Virus record (IMG/VR): IMGVR_UViG_3300013099_000069
Coordinates: 1-27,727 of that record
Reading direction: 5' to 3' (one strand)
Length of the DNA stretch: 27,727 nucleotides
DNA from: a virus
Shown here: in pieces, positions 481-23,583 of the stretch
Position numbering within the stretch: position 1 is the stretch's first letter
Layout: the number at the start of each line of letters is the position of its first letter
Made by a program: the position numbers and the translations under genes
Notes under the pieces: model-generated
Told to the model about the DNA's origin: nothing
The model's database searches: none
The model's input: the letters and a program-made list of their open reading frames with translations, nothing else

Positions 481-3324
481 ATGATAGCAAAAATCAATGA
501 ACTTAAAAGAAGTACAACCGTTCAAGAAGTGAAAGCACTGTGCGAAACAACAATCGCAGCAATGAGTTCTGCAATATATAACGGTGTTACACCCGAGGCT
601 CGTTTTGAGATTGAAAGAGTTGCTACGGAAAACCTATTTGAAGGTTTGTCTAAGCACCCTGAGGACAAATTAATCTCAGAATGGTTAAAAAACGAACAAC
701 GACTATATTCCGTAAAGAATATAGGAGTGCGTAAGGCAATTAATAACCTTAGAGAAACAGAGGCTAAAAATGATCCTACGCTTGCTGCTATTTTAGAAAG
801 ATTTCAGGAAAGGGTTGACCAATATCCTGAAGTTTTAATTTATGAAGAATTTATTTCTGCTCTATCTGGAGAATATAACTGGGTACCAGGTGTAACTACT
901 CAATTAGATGCTCTATCACAAAGAGTAAGCCAATACAAGAATGATATCGATATCACTAAGATTATCGAAACTATGAAGGCTACAAGAAGTAATTATTTGC
1001 TTCCTCTTATTGAAGATGTTGTTAACAATTATATCGCGAATAAAACTGAGCAAACAAAGAGCCATCTTAAAGAAACTCTTGTTAAGTTTAGTTATGATCC
1101 GTTTGTAAGAGATCTTATTAACATCGTTATGTTAGATGCTACTGATCTTCAACTAGAATATGCAAATGCTCAGTGTGATATTGAAAAGGTTTATTCCCCA
1201 CTTATGTATTTAGGTGAAAATGAAGTTATTTTTAACGTTAAAGGAACTTTTTATGTTAAGAAAGGAAACAACGTTAATAAACTTAAGAAAGACGATGTTG
1301 CAAAACTAGATGAGAAATTCACAGGTCTTTGTGAAGCTATTAATGTTCCTAACGTAGAATTTGGTAAGAATAATATCACAGTTTATGTAGGGAATGATAA
1401 AGCTGTTATTACTGAAAATGACGTAACTGTCAATACTCATGTAATGAACGAGCAAGAATTTAAAGATGCAGCTGAAGTTTCACAGTGGACTGGAAGTACT
1501 AACTTCTATATGTTAACTGAAGCTTTACGTTCTAATTATAAAGAAATTGTACATGTTGATTTTGCAAAGAGAATTTATCTTAAAGAAGATGAAGGGCATG
1601 CTGCTGATATTCTTAAATTAAGAAGCAATATTTATATCACTACATACGATCCTGTAAATAATAAGTCTACATTCTACAGAAACATTAATCCTATCCAAGC
1701 CGAAAAGGTAATGATGGAGCATATGAATTTTGATGTATCTAAAACTTTTGCTGACATACTTCCTAACAAGGAAAAAATTATAACATCGATTGAAGAATCA
1801 AAGAAAGAATTTGTAGAATATATCGCAACTTTAAATGAAAAGATTGAAATGTTTAAAACTTCCGCAACAACTGAAGTTACTGCTGAAGTTTTAGAAGCTC
1901 TTGAAGAAGAATTAAGAGATGTTAAATCTGAATATAAAGATTACGTAAATGAAATGGAAGCTTACACTAACGTGGTGGCTGAAAATATTACAGTTTCTAT
2001 TGACGTAGACGGAGAAAAATATACTGTGCCTATTCCTCAATCAACTTCCACTTCAAAGGGAGAAGTTGCTGATAATGAGCCTGGTACTATCGTAGGTGCT
2101 GAGAATATGGAACCTTCACCTGCTACTGAAATTACATTTGATGATGATCAAACTGAATTACTTGGTGATTCACCATCTATTCAAGATGATGAGGTTGATT
2201 TAGGTGTTGATAACGTAGAAGCTGAAGCTGATGCAGCCGAAGCCGAAGCAGATGCTGGTGTTGAAGATGACGAAGTTGAAGCTGGAGAAGATGCAGCAAT
2301 TGATGGTGCAGAAGCTGGTGATGATACTGATGCAGAAGGTGATGAAGACCTTGAGCTAGGTCTTGGCGATGATGAAAATGAAGATGAAGAAGACTTAGAA
2401 ACTGAAGATGATGAAAATGCTCCAGAATTTACTCCTCAAAATGCTTTATTAGATGATACAGTTGATGCAGAAGCTCCAGAGGAATTAGAACCTGCTGATT
2501 TAGAAGCTGAAGAAGAAGTTGAATTAGATCCTGAAACTGGTGGAGAAGATATAGTTCCAGACGAATTAGAACCAGTAGATGGTGAAGAATCACTTGATGA
2601 TGAAGGTTCAGGAGAAGGCGAAGCAGAAGTTGAAGACGTAGAAGTAAAGGAAAAGCCAAAAGATGCTCCTAAAGTATATCTAAGAAAAACTAAAGTTCAA
2701 GAATCTGCGGGTAAAAAAAAAGTTAAAGTAAACGAAGCTGTACAAATCGGAGACGATATAATGTACAATAAGCAAAAGGGATCTGTAATCGGCGAGATTG
2801 AAGGAGAACTGCTAATTCAAATACAAGGAAGTACTTTTAAAGTGAAACCAGGTGAAGTGAAATTACATGGCGAGAAACCAGAAGAACTTGTTAAACCCCC
2901 ATATAAATTTGACAAAGATGGCCAAAATTTAACTACTAAGACTATGTTTGAGCAATTTGTTAAGTGTGGAATATATGAAAGAAATTCAGCTATCAAACTA
3001 AACAATTGCTTTGTCAAATACTCTGATTACAATAAAGCTGAAAACACAGAATTAATAAGTATTCTTATTGAATCTAAAACAGTTTTAATGCCCAAATCAA
3101 ATATTAGACTTCTAGAAGAACCTAGAGTAACTGAAGAATTTGCTCCAGCAGCTGTTATCGACGCTCAGAGTGGGGAAGTTGTAGAGAATGTTGAAGTATG
3201 TGTTGAAGAATTAATGAGTGCAATAGGTAGTGCATCACAAGTAACGATCTTAAGAACTGATCCGTTAACTGGAGAGCAAAGTACTGATACAGTTGCTAGT
3301 TCATTAATCCGTCCTGTGGGATAA
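481..3324 (+). CDS. Large acidic protein, probable virion or prohead component (947 aa)
   Basis: I do not recognise a specific family. The first ~500 residues look alpha-helical, with coiled-coil-like stretches around 450-510. Residues ~553-723 are an extremely Glu/Asp/Ala-rich low-complexity region with short acidic near-repeats (EAEAD, DDEVE). A Lys-rich linker follows, then a folded C-terminal domain of ~220 residues. That domain includes an SH3/KOW-like stretch (VQIGDDIMYNKQKGSV and following) and a second similar beta segment ending VLMPKSNIRLLEE. Its N terminus (MIAKINEL) resembles those of three other proteins in the window. It starts a block that leads into neck and portal genes, so a scaffold or internal head protein is possible. 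That role is inference. Confidence 0.6.
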   Translation: MIAKINELKRSTTVQEVKALCETTIAAMSSAIYNGVTPEARFEIERVATENLFEGLSKHPEDKLISEWLKNEQRLYSVKNIGVRKAINNLRETEAKNDPTLAAILERFQERVDQYPEVLIYEEFISALSGEYNWVPGVTTQLDALSQRVSQYKNDIDITKIIETMKATRSNYLLPLIEDVVNNYIANKTEQTKSHLKETLVKFSYDPFVRDLINIVMLDATDLQLEYANAQCDIEKVYSPLMYLGENEVIFNVKGTFYVKKGNNVNKLKKDDVAKLDEKFTGLCEAINVPNVEFGKNNITVYVGNDKAVITENDVTVNTHVMNEQEFKDAAEVSQWTGSTNFYMLTEALRSNYKEIVHVDFAKRIYLKEDEGHAADILKLRSNIYITTYDPVNNKSTFYRNINPIQAEKVMMEHMNFDVSKTFADILPNKEKIITSIEESKKEFVEYIATLNEKIEMFKTSATTEVTAEVLEALEEELRDVKSEYKDYVNEMEAYTNVVAENITVSIDVDGEKYTVPIPQSTSTSKGEVADNEPGTIVGAENMEPSPATEITFDDDQTELLGDSPSIQDDEVDLGVDNVEAEADAAEAEADAGVEDDEVEAGEDAAIDGAEAGDDTDAEGDEDLELGLGDDENEDEEDLETEDDENAPEFTPQNALLDDTVDAEAPEELEPADLEAEEEVELDPETGGEDIVPDELEPVDGEESLDDEGSGEGEAEVEDVEVKEKPKDAPKVYLRKTKVQESAGKKKVKVNEAVQIGDDIMYNKQKGSVIGEIEGELLIQIQGSTFKVKPGEVKLHGEKPEELVKPPYKFDKDGQNLTTKTMFEQFVKCGIYERNSAIKLNNCFVKYSDYNKAENTELISILIESKTVLMPKSNIRLLEEPRVTEEFAPAAVIDAQSGEVVENVEVCVEELMSAIGSASQVTILRTDPLTGEQSTDTVASSLIRPVG

Positions 3325-4514: not shown

Positions 4515-5114
4515 ATGAATTTTATATACATTACAACTAATTTAGTGAATGGTAAGCAATATATAGGTTCTCATAATGGAGAAGAAAACGATGAATATCT
4601 GGGAAGCGGAAAATTATTTTCCTTTAAATTAAATGAATATGGTAAAGAAAATTTCAAAAGAGAAATAATAGAAGAATGTGATCCATCTTTAAATTTGGTT
4701 TTAGAAACTAAATATATCGAAGAATACAATACATTAATCCCAAATGGATATAATATTAGCAGAACTGGCGGATTAGGATTAGTTGGCGAACCCTGGGGGA
4801 ATCACACAACTAAAACAAAAAATAGAATTTCAGAAAAACTAACGGGCAGGAAACTATCAGATAAAACAAAGAAAAAAATTAGTATAGCTAATAAAGGAAA
4901 AAAGAGATCAGAAGAAGCAAAAGAAAAATACAGTAAAGCAAAAAAAGGTAAAAAACTATCTGAAGATCATAAAAGAAAAATTAGTGAATCAGAAAAAGGA
5001 AGAATTTTTTCTGAAGATCATAAAAGAAAAATTAGTATATCAAATAAAGGAAAAAACAATCCCATGTACGGAAAAATCCCGTGGAATAAAGGGGGAAAAC
5101 TTAATAAAAAATAA
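4515..5114 (+). CDS. GIY-YIG homing endonuclease with NUMOD3 repeats
   Basis: The N-terminal ~95 residues are a GIY-YIG nuclease domain. FIYITT supplies the first motif and NGKQYIGSH the YIG motif. EYLGSG, NEYGKENFKREIIEEC and the IPNGYNI region follow, as in phage-type GIY-YIG enzymes. The C-terminal half holds tandem NUMOD3-like DNA-binding units (pattern GRKLSDKTKKKIS, KKLSEDHKRKIS, and so on) and ends with a KNNPMYGK/WNKG block. Such enzymes are free-standing homing endonucleases that spread by cutting cognate loci and being copied by recombination. The gene is inserted directly upstream of the gp55-like gene with only 4 nt between them. A second member lies at 22897-23583 on the other strand. 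Confidence 0.9.
   Translation: MNFIYITTNLVNGKQYIGSHNGEENDEYLGSGKLFSFKLNEYGKENFKREIIEECDPSLNLVLETKYIEEYNTLIPNGYNISRTGGLGLVGEPWGNHTTKTKNRISEKLTGRKLSDKTKKKISIANKGKKRSEEAKEKYSKAKKGKKLSEDHKRKISESEKGRIFSEDHKRKISISNKGKNNPMYGKIPWNKGGKLNKK
4959..5036 (+). repeat. 27-nt direct repeat inside the NUMOD3 region
   Basis: An identical 27-nt segment beginning TCTGAAGATCATAAAAG occurs at 4959-4985 and 5010-5036. The copies are 51 nt (17 codons) apart and in the same frame. Each encodes SEDHKRKIS. Perfect nucleotide identity suggests a recent in-frame duplication of one DNA-binding unit. Confidence 0.85.
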
Positions 5115-5476: not shown

Positions 5477-6100
5477 ATGGCTAACGAATCTTATAAAGCA
5501 TGGCATAAACCACGGCCTAATAAGTATAATGAAAATGGAAATCTTCAAAAAGGAGAAACTCACCGGGGCTATTACAACATAGTCAACAAAGATAAGTTTA
5601 TCGGAGATACAGCATTGGCAATATACAGAAGTGCTTGGGAATACAGTTTCTGTAGATATCTCGATATGTCTCCTTCAGTAAAAAGATGGTCAACTGAACC
5701 AGTTTCAATTCCTTATTACGATAGAGTTTCAAAGTTACAGGAATGCGCTAAACTTGGTTTAGATCCAAATGATCCAAGAAACTGGGAAGTTAAAAATTAT
5801 AATACAGATTTTTGGTATGAAGTAGATAACGGAAGAACTAAGCTAGAAAAGATTTTTGTAGAAATTAAGCCAAGATATAAATTAAAGAAACCTATTCCGC
5901 CTTCCCATGACGCACCGCTAAAAGAACAACGGATTTTCGTAAAAAACGCTAAAGAGTATTTGGTAAATGAAGCAAAATTTGCTGCATTGAAAGAATGGTC
6001 TGACAGAAATGGAGCTAAATTTTATGTGTTCACTGAAGAAATTCTCGAAAGAATATGTGGAAGGTTTTGGCATGAAAAGCCGCCAAGAAAGATGATCTAA
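5477..6100 (+). CDS. 4: T4 gp4-like head completion protein (PD-(D/E)XK nuclease fold)
   Basis: T4 gp4 acts at the packaged head before tail joining. Members carry a TnsA-like nuclease core. Visible here are IYRSAWEYSFCRYLD (49-63, conserved 'YRSSWE' block with E55), SVKRWSTEPVSIPYYD (67-82), NTDFWYEV with D111, and FVEIKPRYKLKKP with E129 and K131. Together these form a credible D...ExK active site. At 207 residues it is longer than T4 gp4 (150 aa), owing partly to an N-terminal extension and an insert around 85-105. It follows the gp55-like gene by 10 nt and abuts the next gene directly (stop/ATG), in a head-neck operon leading to the portal. Confidence 0.8.
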   Translation: MANESYKAWHKPRPNKYNENGNLQKGETHRGYYNIVNKDKFIGDTALAIYRSAWEYSFCRYLDMSPSVKRWSTEPVSIPYYDRVSKLQECAKLGLDPNDPRNWEVKNYNTDFWYEVDNGRTKLEKIFVEIKPRYKLKKPIPPSHDAPLKEQRIFVKNAKEYLVNEAKFAALKEWSDRNGAKFYVFTEEILERICGRFWHEKPPRKMI

Positions 6101-6809: not shown

Positions 6810-8624
6810 ATGGCAGGTTTTACACTGAGAAATATAGACGGCAAACCATCAGGGTTCATTGCACAAATCCAGCGTAACATTCGTTACATGGCTGGTCTTG
6901 GAATGAAGTATGAGGATGGTATCGTCAAACAATCCAAGGCAATTGGTATCACAGAAGCTACTGAGGATACTATGTACAATATGTACGGCCAATCTCAGAT
7001 ATTTACTGGGAATGATATCGGAGGAAAAGAATTTATTGCGTATTACGACAAAGAATATCCTACACGGAGAGACTTTTTACGTAGATTTGCAATGAATGGT
7101 GAAATTGAACACGTATTAGAAGTAATTAGTGATGAAACTATCATCTTTGACGATAGTAATTATTTCGCATATCCAAATACAAAAGTTTTAAAGTCTGTTT
7201 TAAAACAAGATAAGGCTAAAGAAATTATAGATGACTTAAATGCAGCATATAAAAAGATTTATTATGCGTTTGGATTTAACGATGGACATGATGCTTGGCA
7301 TTATCTGAAGAAATTATTAGTCGATGGTTTCTTAGCATTTGAAATTATCTATGATGTAAATGATAAGGATGATGCAGAAAACGTTATTGGATTTAAAGAA
7401 CTTGATCCAGTTTCTTTAGAGCCTGAATTTAAAAAAGATGAGCTTGGAAATGAATATAAAGTATGGGTTCAGTATAGAGGAGATTCAGAAAGACAAAGAG
7501 AATTACTTGATTCTAACTTAATTTACATATCCTGGGCAAGGACTAATTTCGTTTCAAGATTATCATACGTAGAAAGATTAGTACGTTCATTTAATATGCT
7601 AAGAACTCTTGAAAATTCAAGAATTATTTGGAATGTAATTAACTCACAATATAGAATGAAGATTGTTGTACCTATTGGAACTCAATCTGAAGCAAAAGCA
7701 AGAACTAGATTAGCTGAACTTCGTGGTATGTATAAAGAAGATATTACGATTGCTGATGAATCAGGAGAAGTAACAATTAATGGTCAGCCAAACTTCTCAT
7801 TCGCCAAGACTTATATTTTACCATCTAAAGATGGGGTCGAAACTGTAATTGACTCGTTTAAACCTGAAGGTTATAACATGCAAGATACTGATTCTCTAAA
7901 GTATTTTTGGATGAGATTTATTGTTGAAACTAAAGTACCTGAAAGTAGATTTAGTAATTCAGCTGAAGCTGGAGAAGGCGGTGGTGGTGATGGTGGAAAT
8001 TGGACAGCTGGAGGAGATGGTATTGCAAGAGAAGAAATGAGATTTGGTTATTTTATTAATCGTATTAGATCCATCTTCAAAGATATTCTTCTTAAACCAA
8101 TGTGGATGCAATTCTGTTTAAAACATCCCGAGTTTGCTAATGATATGAACCTAAGAGGTGCAGTTGGTCTTTTATTTGTTGAAGAAAATCTTTTCACAAT
8201 AGCTAAACAAAGAGATATTGCAAACGCTGGAGCTAGTATTGTAACTACTTTATCTGCTATTACACATCCAAGTGTTGGGCCGGATGGCTCACCAGTAGAT
8301 GTACCATTCTTTGATCCTAAATTCTTAATTGAAAAATATATGCAAATGACTGATACAGACATTGCTCTTAATTCAAAATACAGAAAAGAAAGAGAAGAAG
8401 AAATAAGAAAAATGACCGCTGCTTACGCTAGATTAAATGCTGCAAAAGGAACAGGAGATCAAGGTGAAGGTGCAATGGGTGGTGATGAAGGTGGTGGAGG
8501 AATGGACTTCGGTGGTGGAGATGATTTTGGTGGTGGAGATGATTTTGGAGGAGGAGATAGTATGGACTTTGGTGGAGGAGAAGATACTGGAGATACCGGT
8601 GAAGGAGATTTAGGAGATATTTAA
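6810..8624 (+). CDS. 20: Portal vertex protein, T4 gp20-like
   Basis: The portal forms the dodecameric ring through which DNA is packaged and to which the neck binds. Family landmarks are the ELDPVSLEPEF segment, the long helical region SYVERLVRSFNMLRTLENSR and YRMKIVVPIG. ITIADESGEVTING is followed by FSFAKTYILPS-DG-ETVIDSF and the wing/stem part (DSLKYFWMRFIVETKVPESRF). The length (604 aa) is slightly above T4 gp20 (524 aa). The excess is a C-terminal tail of ~50 residues rich in Gly/Asp with DFGGGD repeats. A second Gly run (GEGGGGDGGNW) lies near residue 390, following the conserved ESRF block. Upstream neighbours gp4 and the gp2-like protein fit a head-neck operon. Confidence 0.92.
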   Translation: MAGFTLRNIDGKPSGFIAQIQRNIRYMAGLGMKYEDGIVKQSKAIGITEATEDTMYNMYGQSQIFTGNDIGGKEFIAYYDKEYPTRRDFLRRFAMNGEIEHVLEVISDETIIFDDSNYFAYPNTKVLKSVLKQDKAKEIIDDLNAAYKKIYYAFGFNDGHDAWHYLKKLLVDGFLAFEIIYDVNDKDDAENVIGFKELDPVSLEPEFKKDELGNEYKVWVQYRGDSERQRELLDSNLIYISWARTNFVSRLSYVERLVRSFNMLRTLENSRIIWNVINSQYRMKIVVPIGTQSEAKARTRLAELRGMYKEDITIADESGEVTINGQPNFSFAKTYILPSKDGVETVIDSFKPEGYNMQDTDSLKYFWMRFIVETKVPESRFSNSAEAGEGGGGDGGNWTAGGDGIAREEMRFGYFINRIRSIFKDILLKPMWMQFCLKHPEFANDMNLRGAVGLLFVEENLFTIAKQRDIANAGASIVTTLSAITHPSVGPDGSPVDVPFFDPKFLIEKYMQMTDTDIALNSKYRKEREEEIRKMTAAYARLNAAKGTGDQGEGAMGGDEGGGGMDFGGGDDFGGGDDFGGGDSMDFGGGEDTGDTGEGDLGDI

Positions 8625-11576: not shown

Positions 11577-12197
11577 ATGAAGAAAAACAATTCTGTTCAA
11601 ACTACTGCATTAAATTTCGTAGAAAAAAGAGACAACCAAACCTTTAGTGATTTAATGGACCGTTTGAGACCTGGATTGACATCTTTTGTCTATAGATACA
11701 TTCAAGATAAAGATGTCATTAATGAAGTATTATCACAAACATTTATTTCAATTTGGGAAAAAGTCGACCAATACAATTCCAAGTATAATTTTTCAACTTG
11801 GGCATACGCAATAGCAAAAAATGAGGCACTTGGTCAAATTAGAAATAGAAACAAAAATTTATCACATGATAGATTAACTGAGAATCATTCAAAAATTCTC
11901 AAAGCCTACTCACCAACCGATAGTTTAGAAACTGAGGTTATCGGTCCTGTTGGAGAAGAATTAATACAACAATTATATGACGCTTCGGTCAATGCAATAC
12001 ACTCTCTAAAGGAGCCATATAGAACTGTAATGATAGAAAGAGAAGTTAATAGGAAACAACTACAAACTATCGCAGAAGAATTAGGATGGAACACATCAAC
12101 TGTTAAAACTCGTTTACGAAAAGCAAGGAAAGACATTGCAAACAACGTTAAAAAACAATTTCCTGATTTAGTAGACGCATACAGGGAGGATGATTAA
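11577..12197 (+). CDS. ECF-type RNA polymerase sigma factor
   Basis: The protein has the two-domain build of group 4 (ECF) sigma factors. Region 2 spans ~22-92, with DVINEVLSQTFISIWEKVDQY matching the 'D-A-EDlvQetFl-aw' helix and YNFSTWAYAIAKNEALGQIRNR matching the 'f-tWLy-IArN---d-lR' helix. Region 4 spans ~138-190, with LKEPYRTVMIEREVNRKQLQTIAEELGW and the helix-turn-helix NTSTVKTRLRKARKDI. The linker is ~45 residues. It would redirect host RNA polymerase to a set of phage or host promoters. It is distinct from the gp55-like protein at 5119. A host-type promoter precedes it and the next gene starts immediately after its stop. Confidence 0.85.
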   Translation: MKKNNSVQTTALNFVEKRDNQTFSDLMDRLRPGLTSFVYRYIQDKDVINEVLSQTFISIWEKVDQYNSKYNFSTWAYAIAKNEALGQIRNRNKNLSHDRLTENHSKILKAYSPTDSLETEVIGPVGEELIQQLYDASVNAIHSLKEPYRTVMIEREVNRKQLQTIAEELGWNTSTVKTRLRKARKDIANNVKKQFPDLVDAYREDD

Positions 12198-15483: not shown

Positions 15484-15861
15484 ATGGACGTACAAGTATT
15501 CTTTAAAAAGAACCTAAAGTATATAGCACTAATACTGCTAGGCTTATTCTTCATAAAATCATTTCAGAGTTGTAATAGAAATATGACAATAAAAAAAATG
15601 GACAAAGAAATTGTCTATCTTAACGATTCTTTAAATACAATGCACAATACAGAAACAGCTACTCTTGTTTTACAATTACAAGAATGTGTAGATGATAAGA
15701 AAGAATTAGAATATGAAGTTAAACTAGCAAATTCTGAAAGAGATGCTGCAAATAGAAGAGCTGATGCTGTTCAATCTACTGCAGAAAAGATTCGAGAAAA
15801 TACTACAATTAAAATAGAAAATAATTCAGCACAAGATACTGTGACTGTAGATAATCAATAA
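15484..15861 (+). CDS. Membrane-anchored coiled-coil protein (125 aa)
   Basis: An N-terminal membrane segment (YIALILLGLFFIKSF, ~13-27) is followed by Cys30 in FQSC. This is only loosely like a lipobox, so lipidation is uncertain. Residues ~38-110 form a coiled coil (KKMDKEIVYLNDSLNTM, VLQLQECVDDKKELEYEV, ANSERDAANRRADAV). This architecture is like an inner-membrane spanin, but the usual partner gene is not evident. The next gene begins 3 nt later and encodes a multi-span membrane protein. Confidence 0.6.
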   Translation: MDVQVFFKKNLKYIALILLGLFFIKSFQSCNRNMTIKKMDKEIVYLNDSLNTMHNTETATLVLQLQECVDDKKELEYEVKLANSERDAANRRADAVQSTAEKIRENTTIKIENNSAQDTVTVDNQ

Positions 15862-15864
15862 ATT

Positions 15865-17055
15865 ATGAAAAGTATAAGAAATAGTAAAGGGCTTTATTGG
15901 GGCCTTATCATAGCATTTTTTGCTTTGTATATGTTAGTTGGATTCGTTTCAACTTTACACTCAATTACATTTTTTGAATTAGCTAATACTATGTGGATGG
16001 CTGTTTTGCTCGGCATAACTTATGAAATAGGTCAAGCGGCGGTATTATTCTCAATATTAATGTCAGATAATAGTAAAAAGATATTACCTTGGCTATTAAT
16101 GTTTCTATTAACAGCACTACAAGTCACTGCAAATGTCTACGCATCATTTAAATTCATGGACGGTAGTGGGTCAAATGATTGGACATTTTGGCAAAGATCA
16201 ATATTATTCTGGTTAGAAGCTGATGGCCCTGAAATGTTTAAAGTTGTAATTTCTTGGATATCTGGTGCTTTACTTCCAGTAGTTGCGTTAGGCATGACAG
16301 CATTAGTTGCTGAAAATTTAAAGCTTAAAGATGAGCAGGAAGAAACAAAACTAGGTGGAGATATTTTAGAATCAGCTGGACCAGATCCAGATGATTTACC
16401 TCCAACTGAGGAAGATGTTTCCGAACCTACTGAGGAAAATGTCCCAGAAGCAGTTTCTGTACCAACCGAAGCAATGGGCGGGTTCGAGATGCTAGATAAT
16501 TATCCCGGGAATTTGGGAAAATCAGCCTCTAATGCTTCATATGAACCAGAGTATAAAGATACTACTATCCAAGAGGATGTGGAGAAAATAAAGGAACAGG
16601 AAGCAGATCCATCAGGGGTTGAACCAATTCAAGCACCTAAGAAAGAAGAACAATTAAAAGTTTTAGCTGAAGAATTATTAGATCCCAAAAATCATATTAA
16701 ATTTCCAAAAGATGCAAAAGTTCCGCCAGACACTCGCGGAGAAGCTACAGTAATAAAAGAACCTGTTATAATTTCTTTACAAGATGATCTCGGAGCAAAA
16801 CCTGGAGAACTCGAACCCATAGCAAAGCCAGGTTGGGTGGATGAGGGGCTTAAGCGATCATTTCCCGAAGATAATAAATCCTTTGACAAAGATCCGAACA
16901 CTGGAAAATATGAAAAGAAGCCAGTTAATAACGTAAGAGGGTGGCATCTTAAAAAAGAATTTGTGGACACAAACGGAGATGTCTATAGATTTGGGCAATT
17001 AGTCGATCCTATACTAGATAAAGTAATAAAAAGAAATCCACCAAAAAAAGCATAG
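15865..17055 (+). CDS. Four-span membrane protein with long disordered tail (396 aa, 0 frame)
   Basis: Four hydrophobic helices lie at about 11-31, 42-66, 74-96 and 124-149. A charged linker near 110-122 reads FWLEADGPEMFK. Residues ~155-345 are acidic, Pro-rich and probably disordered. A small conserved-looking end (NVRGWHLKKEFVDTNGDVYRFGQLVDPI) follows. The frame stops at TAG 17053-17055 right after an A7 run that has features of a -1 frameshift site (see the entry for 17043-17089). If shifted, the product is 509 residues. The first part could be a membrane-remodelling or superinfection-exclusion protein. I do not recognise the family. Confidence 0.7.
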   Translation: MKSIRNSKGLYWGLIIAFFALYMLVGFVSTLHSITFFELANTMWMAVLLGITYEIGQAAVLFSILMSDNSKKILPWLLMFLLTALQVTANVYASFKFMDGSGSNDWTFWQRSILFWLEADGPEMFKVVISWISGALLPVVALGMTALVAENLKLKDEQEETKLGGDILESAGPDPDDLPPTEEDVSEPTEENVPEAVSVPTEAMGGFEMLDNYPGNLGKSASNASYEPEYKDTTIQEDVEKIKEQEADPSGVEPIQAPKKEEQLKVLAEELLDPKNHIKFPKDAKVPPDTRGEATVIKEPVIISLQDDLGAKPGELEPIAKPGWVDEGLKRSFPEDNKSFDKDPNTGKYEKKPVNNVRGWHLKKEFVDTNGDVYRFGQLVDPILDKVIKRNPPKKA

Positions 17056-17089
17056 GGGTAGAGGAGAAACCAGTCAAACCCCCTACCCC
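17043..17089 (+). promoter_or_regulatory. Predicted -1 programmed frameshift site
   Basis: The heptamer A AAA AAA (17043-17049) is in the correct phase. After 5 nt comes a stem in which GGGGTAG (17055-17061) pairs with CTACCCC (17083-17089), 7 bp, with two further G-C pairs beyond one mismatch. The zero-frame stop TAG is at 17053-17055. Confidence 0.6.
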
Positions 17090-17393
17090 CAAAAAACCTC
17101 GTAAAAAACGCAGGACAGACCCATTAAAGAAAAAAGCTCCGAAGCCAAAAGTAATAAAAAATCTTGATGAAATCAACATTCCATCAAAAGGGACAGAGTT
17201 ACTTCAGAGCCTCTCTAGTGAACCCGAAGTTGAAGATATAAGTACTATAATCCAGCCGCCAAAAGTTGAAGAGAGTGCACTTGATACACCACAGAGCCAA
17301 AAGAATGATTTTGTAGGGGGTATCATAAATGGAGTTGAAGTTGTAGATGTAAAAGCGATTGAACAAACAAAAAAAAACCTCAACGAAGAGTAG
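17049..17393 (+). other. -1 frame extension of the membrane protein (114 codons)
   Basis: The -1 frame is open from 17022 to TAG 17391-17393, with no ATG near its beginning. It encodes a Pro/Lys-rich basic segment (VKPPTPKKPRKKRR and following), then an acidic part with NLDEINIPSKGTELL, ending KNLNEE. Codon use and composition continue the style of the upstream tail. A sequencing indel in the A7 run or a separate gene with a non-ATG start would be alternatives. Confidence 0.55.
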
Positions 17394-17451
17394 ATAAATA
17401 CGGCATTCTGATTAATCCCGGAGAACATTTGAATTTCGATAAAATATAATG

Positions 17452-22117: not shown

Positions 22118-22927
22118 CTACAACCAGGGAACATCGAACTTGTGGATCTTCTTTTCTAATTTCTTAACTTTCACATTATTGTCAGGGACATTAAATAACA
22201 TAATTGCATTATCTCCTTCTTTCCAATTTTCCCACCTCTCTACAGCATCATCTATTAATTCTTTCTTAAAATGATTTTTAGCACTCCAGTTTTCTAATTT
22301 CTTCCGGATATCTCTTCTAATCCATGCTGCATGGCCCATTCTGAGCTCACTGTCTTCAAAGATATAGGTACCTAGGTTAGAGGGGTTGTTGATCCTTCTA
22401 GTGGGATCGGTGGGACCCGGAGCAGGTCCCTGGTAAGTATATTTAAAGAAGGTTGAATGAACAAACGGGACGAATGGTCGAAATGGATAAACTAAGTAAT
22501 GTTCAAAATCTCTATAGTAATTTACATAAGAACAGTACGTAATAGTGTAGCCTCTTGTAGCAATTAAATCAAGCGCTGATTCAAATTGATCTGCATCATA
22601 AAACTCATCTGAATCCGCATTTAATATATGACTGTATCCTTGACGTTTCATCAAATCTATACCCATGTTTCTTTTTTCGCACTCTTGCTCTCGAGAATAT
22701 TTCGCGAAGTTGGGCTTAAACTCAATAAGCTCATCAACCAATCCAAGAGTTTTAAGACGAAGAAGCTCTTCCATATCCTCGTCAGCCATAGGATTTTTCC
22801 AATATGATAATTTTTGATAAATAGCAGCAACATGATCAACTTGATCACGGATTTCAGATATTAAAGGTTCTAATAATTCTGATGAGTCAAAAGCATTTAG
22901 GGTAAGAGCGAGTTTTTTAATTGCCAT
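22118..22927 (-). CDS. Glycosyltransferase-like protein (269 aa)
   Basis: The fold suggested is GT-A. An N-terminal strand and turn KKLALTLNAFDSSELL (4-19) is followed by a helical region, then EKRNMGIDLMKRQGYSHILNADSDEFYD (84-111). The last part has D105-S-D107, a DxD-type metal/nucleotide-sugar site. This block matches family-2-like glycosyltransferases of phages and bacteria. The remainder has many Tyr, Phe and Trp residues and an HAAWIRRDIRKKLENW segment. It may modify virion proteins, phage DNA or the host surface. Its start lies 31 nt inside the upstream homing endonuclease gene. Confidence 0.72.
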   Translation of the reverse strand: MAIKKLALTLNAFDSSELLEPLISEIRDQVDHVAAIYQKLSYWKNPMADEDMEELLRLKTLGLVDELIEFKPNFAKYSREQECEKRNMGIDLMKRQGYSHILNADSDEFYDADQFESALDLIATRGYTITYCSYVNYYRDFEHYLVYPFRPFVPFVHSTFFKYTYQGPAPGPTDPTRRINNPSNLGTYIFEDSELRMGHAAWIRRDIRKKLENWSAKNHFKKELIDDAVERWENWKEGDNAIMLFNVPDNNVKVKKLEKKIHKFDVPWL

Positions 22928-23583
22928 AATTTTTTTTCTTTTTCTAATAATCTTCGTTTTCTTTGCGCAATTTTTATATTTTTTCTAGCTTCATCTGATC
23001 TAGGTTTACGCATTTTCTTTTTAGTTTCTTCTGAATGAGTTTTTTCGTACATGCCATTTTTAGATCCAGTTATCTTATCTCCGTTATTATACATTGGATT
23101 ATTGGATCCGCTTGTTGCAATTTTAATTTTATTTTTATATTCTTTAGATCGTCTAATACCCTCTTTTTCTCCGTAAATATTTATCATTTGATCTTCATAA
23201 CTTTTTCCTTTTTTATTCAAAGTATTAAATTCTGATAAATATTTACTAATTTTTCCAGTATGTGCCATTCCAATTTTATATCGGGTTTCTTTTGATAAAA
23301 AGGAATTAGGAATTCCATATCCTCCCTTAGGGCTAATATTATATCCATTCGGAGATAATGTGATATATTCGTTTATCCATTTTTCTTGGGCATCATCAAA
23401 AAATCCTAAAATTTCTTTTTTAAAATTTTCTTTTCCATATTTTCTTATAGCATTTTTAAAATATGTTCCACTACCTAAATAAGGATCTTTAGATGGATCA
23501 CAATTACATGATCTATCACCTATATATTGTTTATTATTAATTAAGCAAGTAGTTACATAAACATAATTAAATTTCTTAACCAT
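22897..23583 (-). CDS. GIY-YIG homing endonuclease (228 aa)
   Basis: The N-terminal domain has FNYVYVTT and NNKQYIGDR, then YLGSGTYFKNAIRKYGKENFKKEIL and the SPNGYNISPKGGYG end. It is colinear with the enzyme at 4515. The C-terminal half is basic, with NUMOD-like units (LSKETRYKIGMAHTGKIS, HSEETKKKMRKPRSDEARKNI) and NNPMYNN. It is a free-standing homing endonuclease. Its 3' end overlaps the glycosyltransferase start by 31 nt. This suggests that insertion created the present junction. Confidence 0.88.
   Translation of the reverse strand: MVKKFNYVYVTTCLINNKQYIGDRSCNCDPSKDPYLGSGTYFKNAIRKYGKENFKKEILGFFDDAQEKWINEYITLSPNGYNISPKGGYGIPNSFLSKETRYKIGMAHTGKISKYLSEFNTLNKKGKSYEDQMINIYGEKEGIRRSKEYKNKIKIATSGSNNPMYNNGDKITGSKNGMYEKTHSEETKKKMRKPRSDEARKNIKIAQRKRRLLEKEKKLWQLKNSLLP

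Follow-up and report, generated by a model that had tools for sequence, protein, structure and literature searches.

The gene, its neighbourhood and its relatives

The window analysed in this work (i.e., the whole stretch of a 27.7-kb virus record) carries genes for a T4-type portal, a head closure protein, a sigma factor, thymidylate kinase and synthase, an SLT transglycosylase and homing endonucleases, along with the membrane-protein gene studied here. A Shine-Dalgarno-like motif is found in 0 of its 27 genes, and the nearest named relatives of its portal are LR756500 and the Prevotella Lak phages. The missing motifs and these portal relatives, together with the occurrence of a related contig within a Bacteroidales MAG, suggest a Bacteroidota host; the location of one related locus (L078) in an Aenigmatarchaeota MAG is probably due to misbinning. 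The homing endonuclease genes are of the GIY-YIG/NUMOD3 type, one lying among the structural genes (4515-5114) and the other on the minus strand near the thymidylate synthase gene (22897-23583), where it is overlapped by another minus-strand gene (22118-22927) with a weak glycosyltransferase-2 match below the cut-off.

The zero-frame ORF of the membrane-protein gene (15865-17055, plus strand, like all features of this gene) encodes 396 amino acids, comprising a membrane domain at residues ~8-167, a variable linker and a short GWH motif, and ends in ...PPKKA*, its last codons being CCA AAA AAA GCA TAG. A tail of 114 codons plus TAG follows in the -1 frame (17049-17393), entry into which at a first site would give a product of 509 residues, and the third frame (17375-17449) holds a further conserved stretch, the C terminus KPQRRVDKYGILINPGEHLNFDKI followed by TAA, which would bring the product up to 528. 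The gene as a whole (15865-17449) is thus predicted to have three products, of 396, 509 and 528 residues. The original prediction of 396- and 509-residue forms is borne out as far as these lengths go, but the full-length product would be that of 528 residues.

Conservation is highest in the N-terminal membrane domain, with its four to five helices, whilst the GWH motif is found 5′ of site 1 in most genes having this site. An AlphaFold model reached a mean pLDDT of 61, with linkers at low confidence, and its fold search in PDB and BFVD returned nothing significant; Pfam and PHROGs searches gave no PHROG match and no credible Pfam family. A tail assembly chaperone of the gpG/gpGT type was considered and rejected, both for lack of such matches and because membrane helices are at odds with a soluble protein. 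Our best guess, held with low confidence, is a membrane-anchored late protein with tails of differing length. Its upstream neighbour (15484-15861, plus strand), which is adjacent in the relatives checked, encodes 125 amino acids with a hydrophobic N-terminal stretch followed by a charged region, and is a possible partner.

The first single-protein scans of viral contigs yielded no relatives of this gene, and related contigs were reached through the portal protein instead. In two of them (L003 and L006) the membrane gene is found at 52-53% identity with its tail in the -1 frame. Alignments then gave 27, and later 39, IMG/VR loci (many of them on the same contigs), to which a genome collection added two further contigs, including the one within the Bacteroidales MAG. 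Amongst annotated phages, a DNA-level search found no match, and the sole match of a protein search was distant and N-terminal, to a gene of LR756500 with neither tail nor shifts. Counting CAAAAAAAG as a pattern across four large contigs was uninformative.

The A7 heptamer and its hairpin

Site 1 (17043-17049) is a slippery heptamer, A AAA AAA, which the 396-residue ORF reads as A|AAA|AAA. It is followed by a 5-nt spacer (GCATA) and by a 7-bp stem, the arms of which (GGGGTAG at 17055-17061 and CTACCCC at 17083-17089) enclose a loop of 21 nt. The -1 frame is open up to the TAG at 17391-17393, with no ATG, GTG or TTG in the window tail. Heptamer, spacer, stem and the 114 open codons are all as originally described. 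The fold of 17050-17130 reaches -18.6 kcal/mol (z -3.1), and 2 of 200 dinucleotide shuffles were equally good.

The same layout, proposed earlier as something to look for in relatives, recurs in 18 loci from many metagenomes: the window, L016 (= L003), L017, L018, L020 (= L006), L023, L025, L028, L032, L033, L036, L037, L038, L054, L065, L068, L078 and L079. Two more loci met later through the tail, L081 and L092, also have site 1, the gene of L092 being apparently the same as that of L028. In 18/18 of the loci the run is exactly A7 in the phase A|AAA|AAA, and in all of them a stem of 6-11 bp starts 4-5 nt 3′ of the heptamer. An exact in-phase A7 is by itself ordinary, with 70 others in the 183 kb of coding sequence examined from these phages; it is the stem that sets the family apart. 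Stem scores at the 18 family sites range from 16.5 to 27 (mean 21.5), whereas 73 other in-phase A7 heptamers from these genomes average 6.7 and reach 18 at most (p = 2e-11, a nominal value given that the family sequences are related). The stems were picked for pairing, for which reason these control heptamers are the proper yardstick.

The arms of the hairpin diverge and still pair, as in GGGGTAG/CTACCCC, GGGACCGGC/GCCGGTCCC, GGAACGAGT/ACTCGTTCC and GGAACTTCTAT/ATAGAAGTTCC, with pair types varying at stem positions 3-8 whilst pairing is retained. The zero-frame stop is less constant: its distance from the heptamer, as counted by the script, is 6 nt in most loci, 12 nt in L078, 30 nt in L079 and 162 nt in L036, and a stop next to the heptamer is not the conserved element at this site. 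An extension of the hairpin into a pseudoknot seemed significant in a shuffle test (p 2e-6), but swaps of loop and downstream sequences between genomes gave p = 0.10, and it is not claimed.

Beyond the heptamer, the tails are 40-60% identical at the amino acid level in the -1 frame. Differences between them, summed over pairs that are not independent of each other, number 2187, 1688 and 3048 at codon positions 1, 2 and 3, respectively, a third-position excess which indicates that the downstream -1 frame is under protein-coding selection.

In bacteria, A_AAA_AAA together with a stem-loop has been proven to act as a -1 signal, and stimulatory structures generally start 5-8 nt past the heptamer (PMC4066793). 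Given the layout and its conservation, site 1 is almost certainly a place of programmed -1 ribosomal frameshifting, and the original prediction is supported to this extent; it missed a second shift further downstream, and was in this respect incomplete. The missing Shine-Dalgarno element at site 1 is consistent with the lack of such motifs throughout the window genes.

The A9 run, the third frame and the exchange of sites

The window tail terminates with NLNEE* at 17393, and the next frame gives PQRRVDKYGILINPGEHLNFDKI* up to 17449. The matching sequence in L006, VDKFGIPIQPGEHKNFDRI, is in frame with its tail. As this conserved C terminus of 24 residues sits in the third frame in the window, another -1 shift would be needed there, and the junction falls at a run of nine As (17369-17377), referred to here as site 2. 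Both steps are required in three genomes (the window, L016 and L025), and only the second in L024, L026, L027, L029, L030, L040, L055, L067 and L070, where the region matching site 1 of the other genes is read in frame without interruption. The run is exactly nine As in 12/12 distinct loci, the next base being C, T or G, and each site 2 contains an in-phase A AAA AAA. No consistent hairpin was found downstream of it among the compared loci.

Runs of this length are otherwise rare in these phages. Their other coding sequence (183 kb) contains 2 runs of A9 or longer, against 38.5 expected from synonymous shuffling, whereas its A7 runs number 138, against 143.6 expected in the same way, 70 of them in slippery phase; A7 alone is tolerated and A9 purged, as would be expected were A9 slippery on its own. 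According to Baranov and colleagues (PMC1088944), many bacterial genomes show selection against A/T runs once these reach nine nucleotides, and the nine As of Thermus dnaX are a case of polymerase slippage; the same authors also name replication slippage as an alternative source of A9 avoidance. The latter may contribute to the avoidance in these phages as well.

From this conservation it is highly probable that site 2 hosts a further programmed -1 event. With regard to its nature, the exact A9, the lack of a shared hairpin and the purging of A9 and longer runs but not of A7 incline us towards a transcriptional event, by RNA-polymerase slippage, rather than a ribosomal one.

Across the family, genes are found with site 1, with site 2, with both, or with an in-frame fusion. 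In L022, L035 and L063 neither shift is present and the parts form one continuous protein, so that the short form would not be required everywhere, or would be made otherwise. On a tree of the membrane domain, which has modest support and some long end branches, the site-1-only label requires 8 changes, of which well supported branches force at least 4, and the site-2-only label requires 5, of which at least 1 is forced. The continuous gene of L022 has an A9 at the corresponding place (7049-7057), where one extra A would lead to ...EEKKNNW* and thereby to a short form, and L067 has a further A9 (5806-5814) upstream of its site 2, where slippage would truncate the protein at ...EEKKN*. What the family has in common, as predicted from its genes, is that shorter as well as longer ends could be made. 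The slips are retained among relatives whilst their place changes, which suggests that selection retains the set of products. A fuller statement, that two -1 events of different kind serve the gene, that the event can be exchanged, lost, doubled or inverted, and that selection acts on the nested products and not on the mechanism, has in our judgement an even chance of being right.

Competing explanations and known systems

Both junctions fall in runs of A, where the loss of a single base at one or both homopolymers through sequencing or assembly error could break a continuous gene, and an eighth A had been named earlier as the observation that would expose this. Yet the same run lengths and frames are seen in many independent metagenomes, the hairpin is kept though its arms have changed, and the junction has moved in other relatives; because neither the count of seven As nor the -1 layout differs in relatives at 40-60% protein identity, a missing base is dismissed as the cause, its probability being negligible. 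Two or three separate genes, with the tail expressed from its own start, would find some comfort in the ATG right after the A7 of L079 and in the GTG 100 nt into the tail of L018. The window tail has no start codon, however, and none of the 26 tail homologues found stands apart from a membrane gene, the occurrence in homologues of a separate downstream gene with its own start having been named earlier as grounds for refuting the prediction. Moreover, the parts are fused in the three continuous relatives, and the A7 and hairpin would be left unexplained, all of which makes separate genes very improbable. As far as sequence allows, both the error and the separate downstream gene are excluded. 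Some Lak-type phages can reassign TAG, and Lak phages are the nearest named portal relatives; were TAG a sense codon in this phage, there would be no zero-frame stop at site 1. Against this, 2 of 25 ordinary window genes end in TAG, and reading through one tested gene gives nonsense overlapping the next gene, TAG acting there as an ordinary stop; conservation of the -1 frame would lack explanation, and L036, L078 and L079 shift with other stop positions. Reassignment is accordingly disfavoured, and is as improbable as the separate genes. Slightly less so, although still improbable, is phase variation, in which mutable A7 and A9 runs would make the long form available in some phage individuals and not in others. 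Coding homopolymers serve this purpose elsewhere (PMC3711429), and the avoidance of A9 is also consistent with mutability, but the run lengths are invariant and not mixed (A7 in 18/18, A9 in 12/12), and a hairpin plays no part in replication slippage.

A more serious competitor is that both shifts are ribosomal, site 2 working on A AAA AAA or A AAA AAC with no strong stimulator, in the manner of retroviral gag-pro-pol. The in-phase heptamer at each site 2 speaks for it, and in one IS A_AAA_AAC has been proven to shift with no established stimulator (PMC4066793). For ribosomes, however, A7 or A8 would be enough, and the run is nonetheless nine in every locus; a shared hairpin is lacking, and the in-phase A7 is tolerated 70 times elsewhere whilst A9 and longer runs are purged. 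A ribosomal shift at site 2 is possible on these grounds, if rather unlikely.

The two-event explanation that we prefer, i.e., one gene with nested proteins made by a ribosomal and then a probably transcriptional slip, is likely when taken as a whole. Ribosomes would pause at the hairpin 5 nt past the A7 at 17043-17049, where the two tRNA-Lys would move back one base on A AAA AAA, bypass the TAG and enter the tail, whereas ribosomes that do not slip would stop one codon later and release the 396-residue form. The stimulator would be the hairpin, with no Shine-Dalgarno element involved. At the A9 at 17369-17377 a second -1 shift would link the tail to the last 24 residues, giving 528 residues as opposed to 509; RNA polymerase would most likely add one A in part of the transcripts, and ribosomes on those mRNAs would continue straight. 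We infer that both shifts occur, at efficiencies by which the balance between the short and long forms of a membrane-anchored protein would be set in cis. The protein itself would act at the inner membrane, perhaps with its 125-residue neighbour.

Each of the two steps has its parallels. The -1 frameshifting of dnaX and IS elements shares with site 1 the tandem slippage at Lys codons, the A-rich heptamer, the hairpin at about the usual distance and a zero-frame stop shortly afterwards which yields a short product (PMC4066793; PMC5009743); unlike these, the window gene has no Shine-Dalgarno stimulator, belongs to a phage membrane-protein family and has a second shift after the first. Among tailed phages, -1 frameshifting is best known from the tail assembly chaperones, and lambda gpG/gpGT likewise has a minor product with a C-terminal extension (PMC5009743); these are soluble proteins, whereas the window product is a predicted membrane protein. 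A9 slippage in Thermus dnaX, some IS elements and type III secretion genes resembles site 2 in the coding A9, in the avoidance of A9 elsewhere and in the alternative ends (PMC1088944; PMC5009743), but here the A9 belongs to a phage gene and follows a predicted ribosomal frameshift, and its slippage would lengthen the product in the window and shorten it in L022. The gag-pro-pol of beta- and deltaretroviruses, finally, makes three nested products by way of two -1 shifts in succession (PMC5009743); both events are ribosomal there, in an unrelated virus and protein, whereas the second event of the window is probably transcriptional. No matching report of this gene family or of double frameshifts in phages was found in the open-access literature searched. 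The kinds of recoding are known, whilst this gene family, its predicted use of two steps within one phage gene and the exchange of one site for another appear undescribed.

Programmed frameshifting in tailed phages being known mainly from tail chaperones, the present family differs; it is widespread and apparently unannotated in large T4-like phages, probably of Bacteroidota, and gene callers truncate its membrane proteins. Where Shine-Dalgarno motifs are missing, recoding is left to be driven by hairpins or bare A9 runs. The switch between ribosomal and probable transcriptional slippage provides a natural series in which to ask whether mechanism or product ratio is maintained, and both sites are short enough for direct reporter tests.

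Runs of this kind occur in other genes of these phages too. A second gene of the window (481-3324, 947 amino acids) has a conserved in-frame A9 at 2713-2721, at which one extra A would lead to a stop within ~3 codons in nine loci (L105-L111, L114 and L118), so that slippage would yield a form without the C-terminal domain; in more distant relatives this domain appears to lie near a start of its own. In L079, an unrelated ORF has an A10 (11858-11867) which precedes its stop by one codon and is a possible further slip site.
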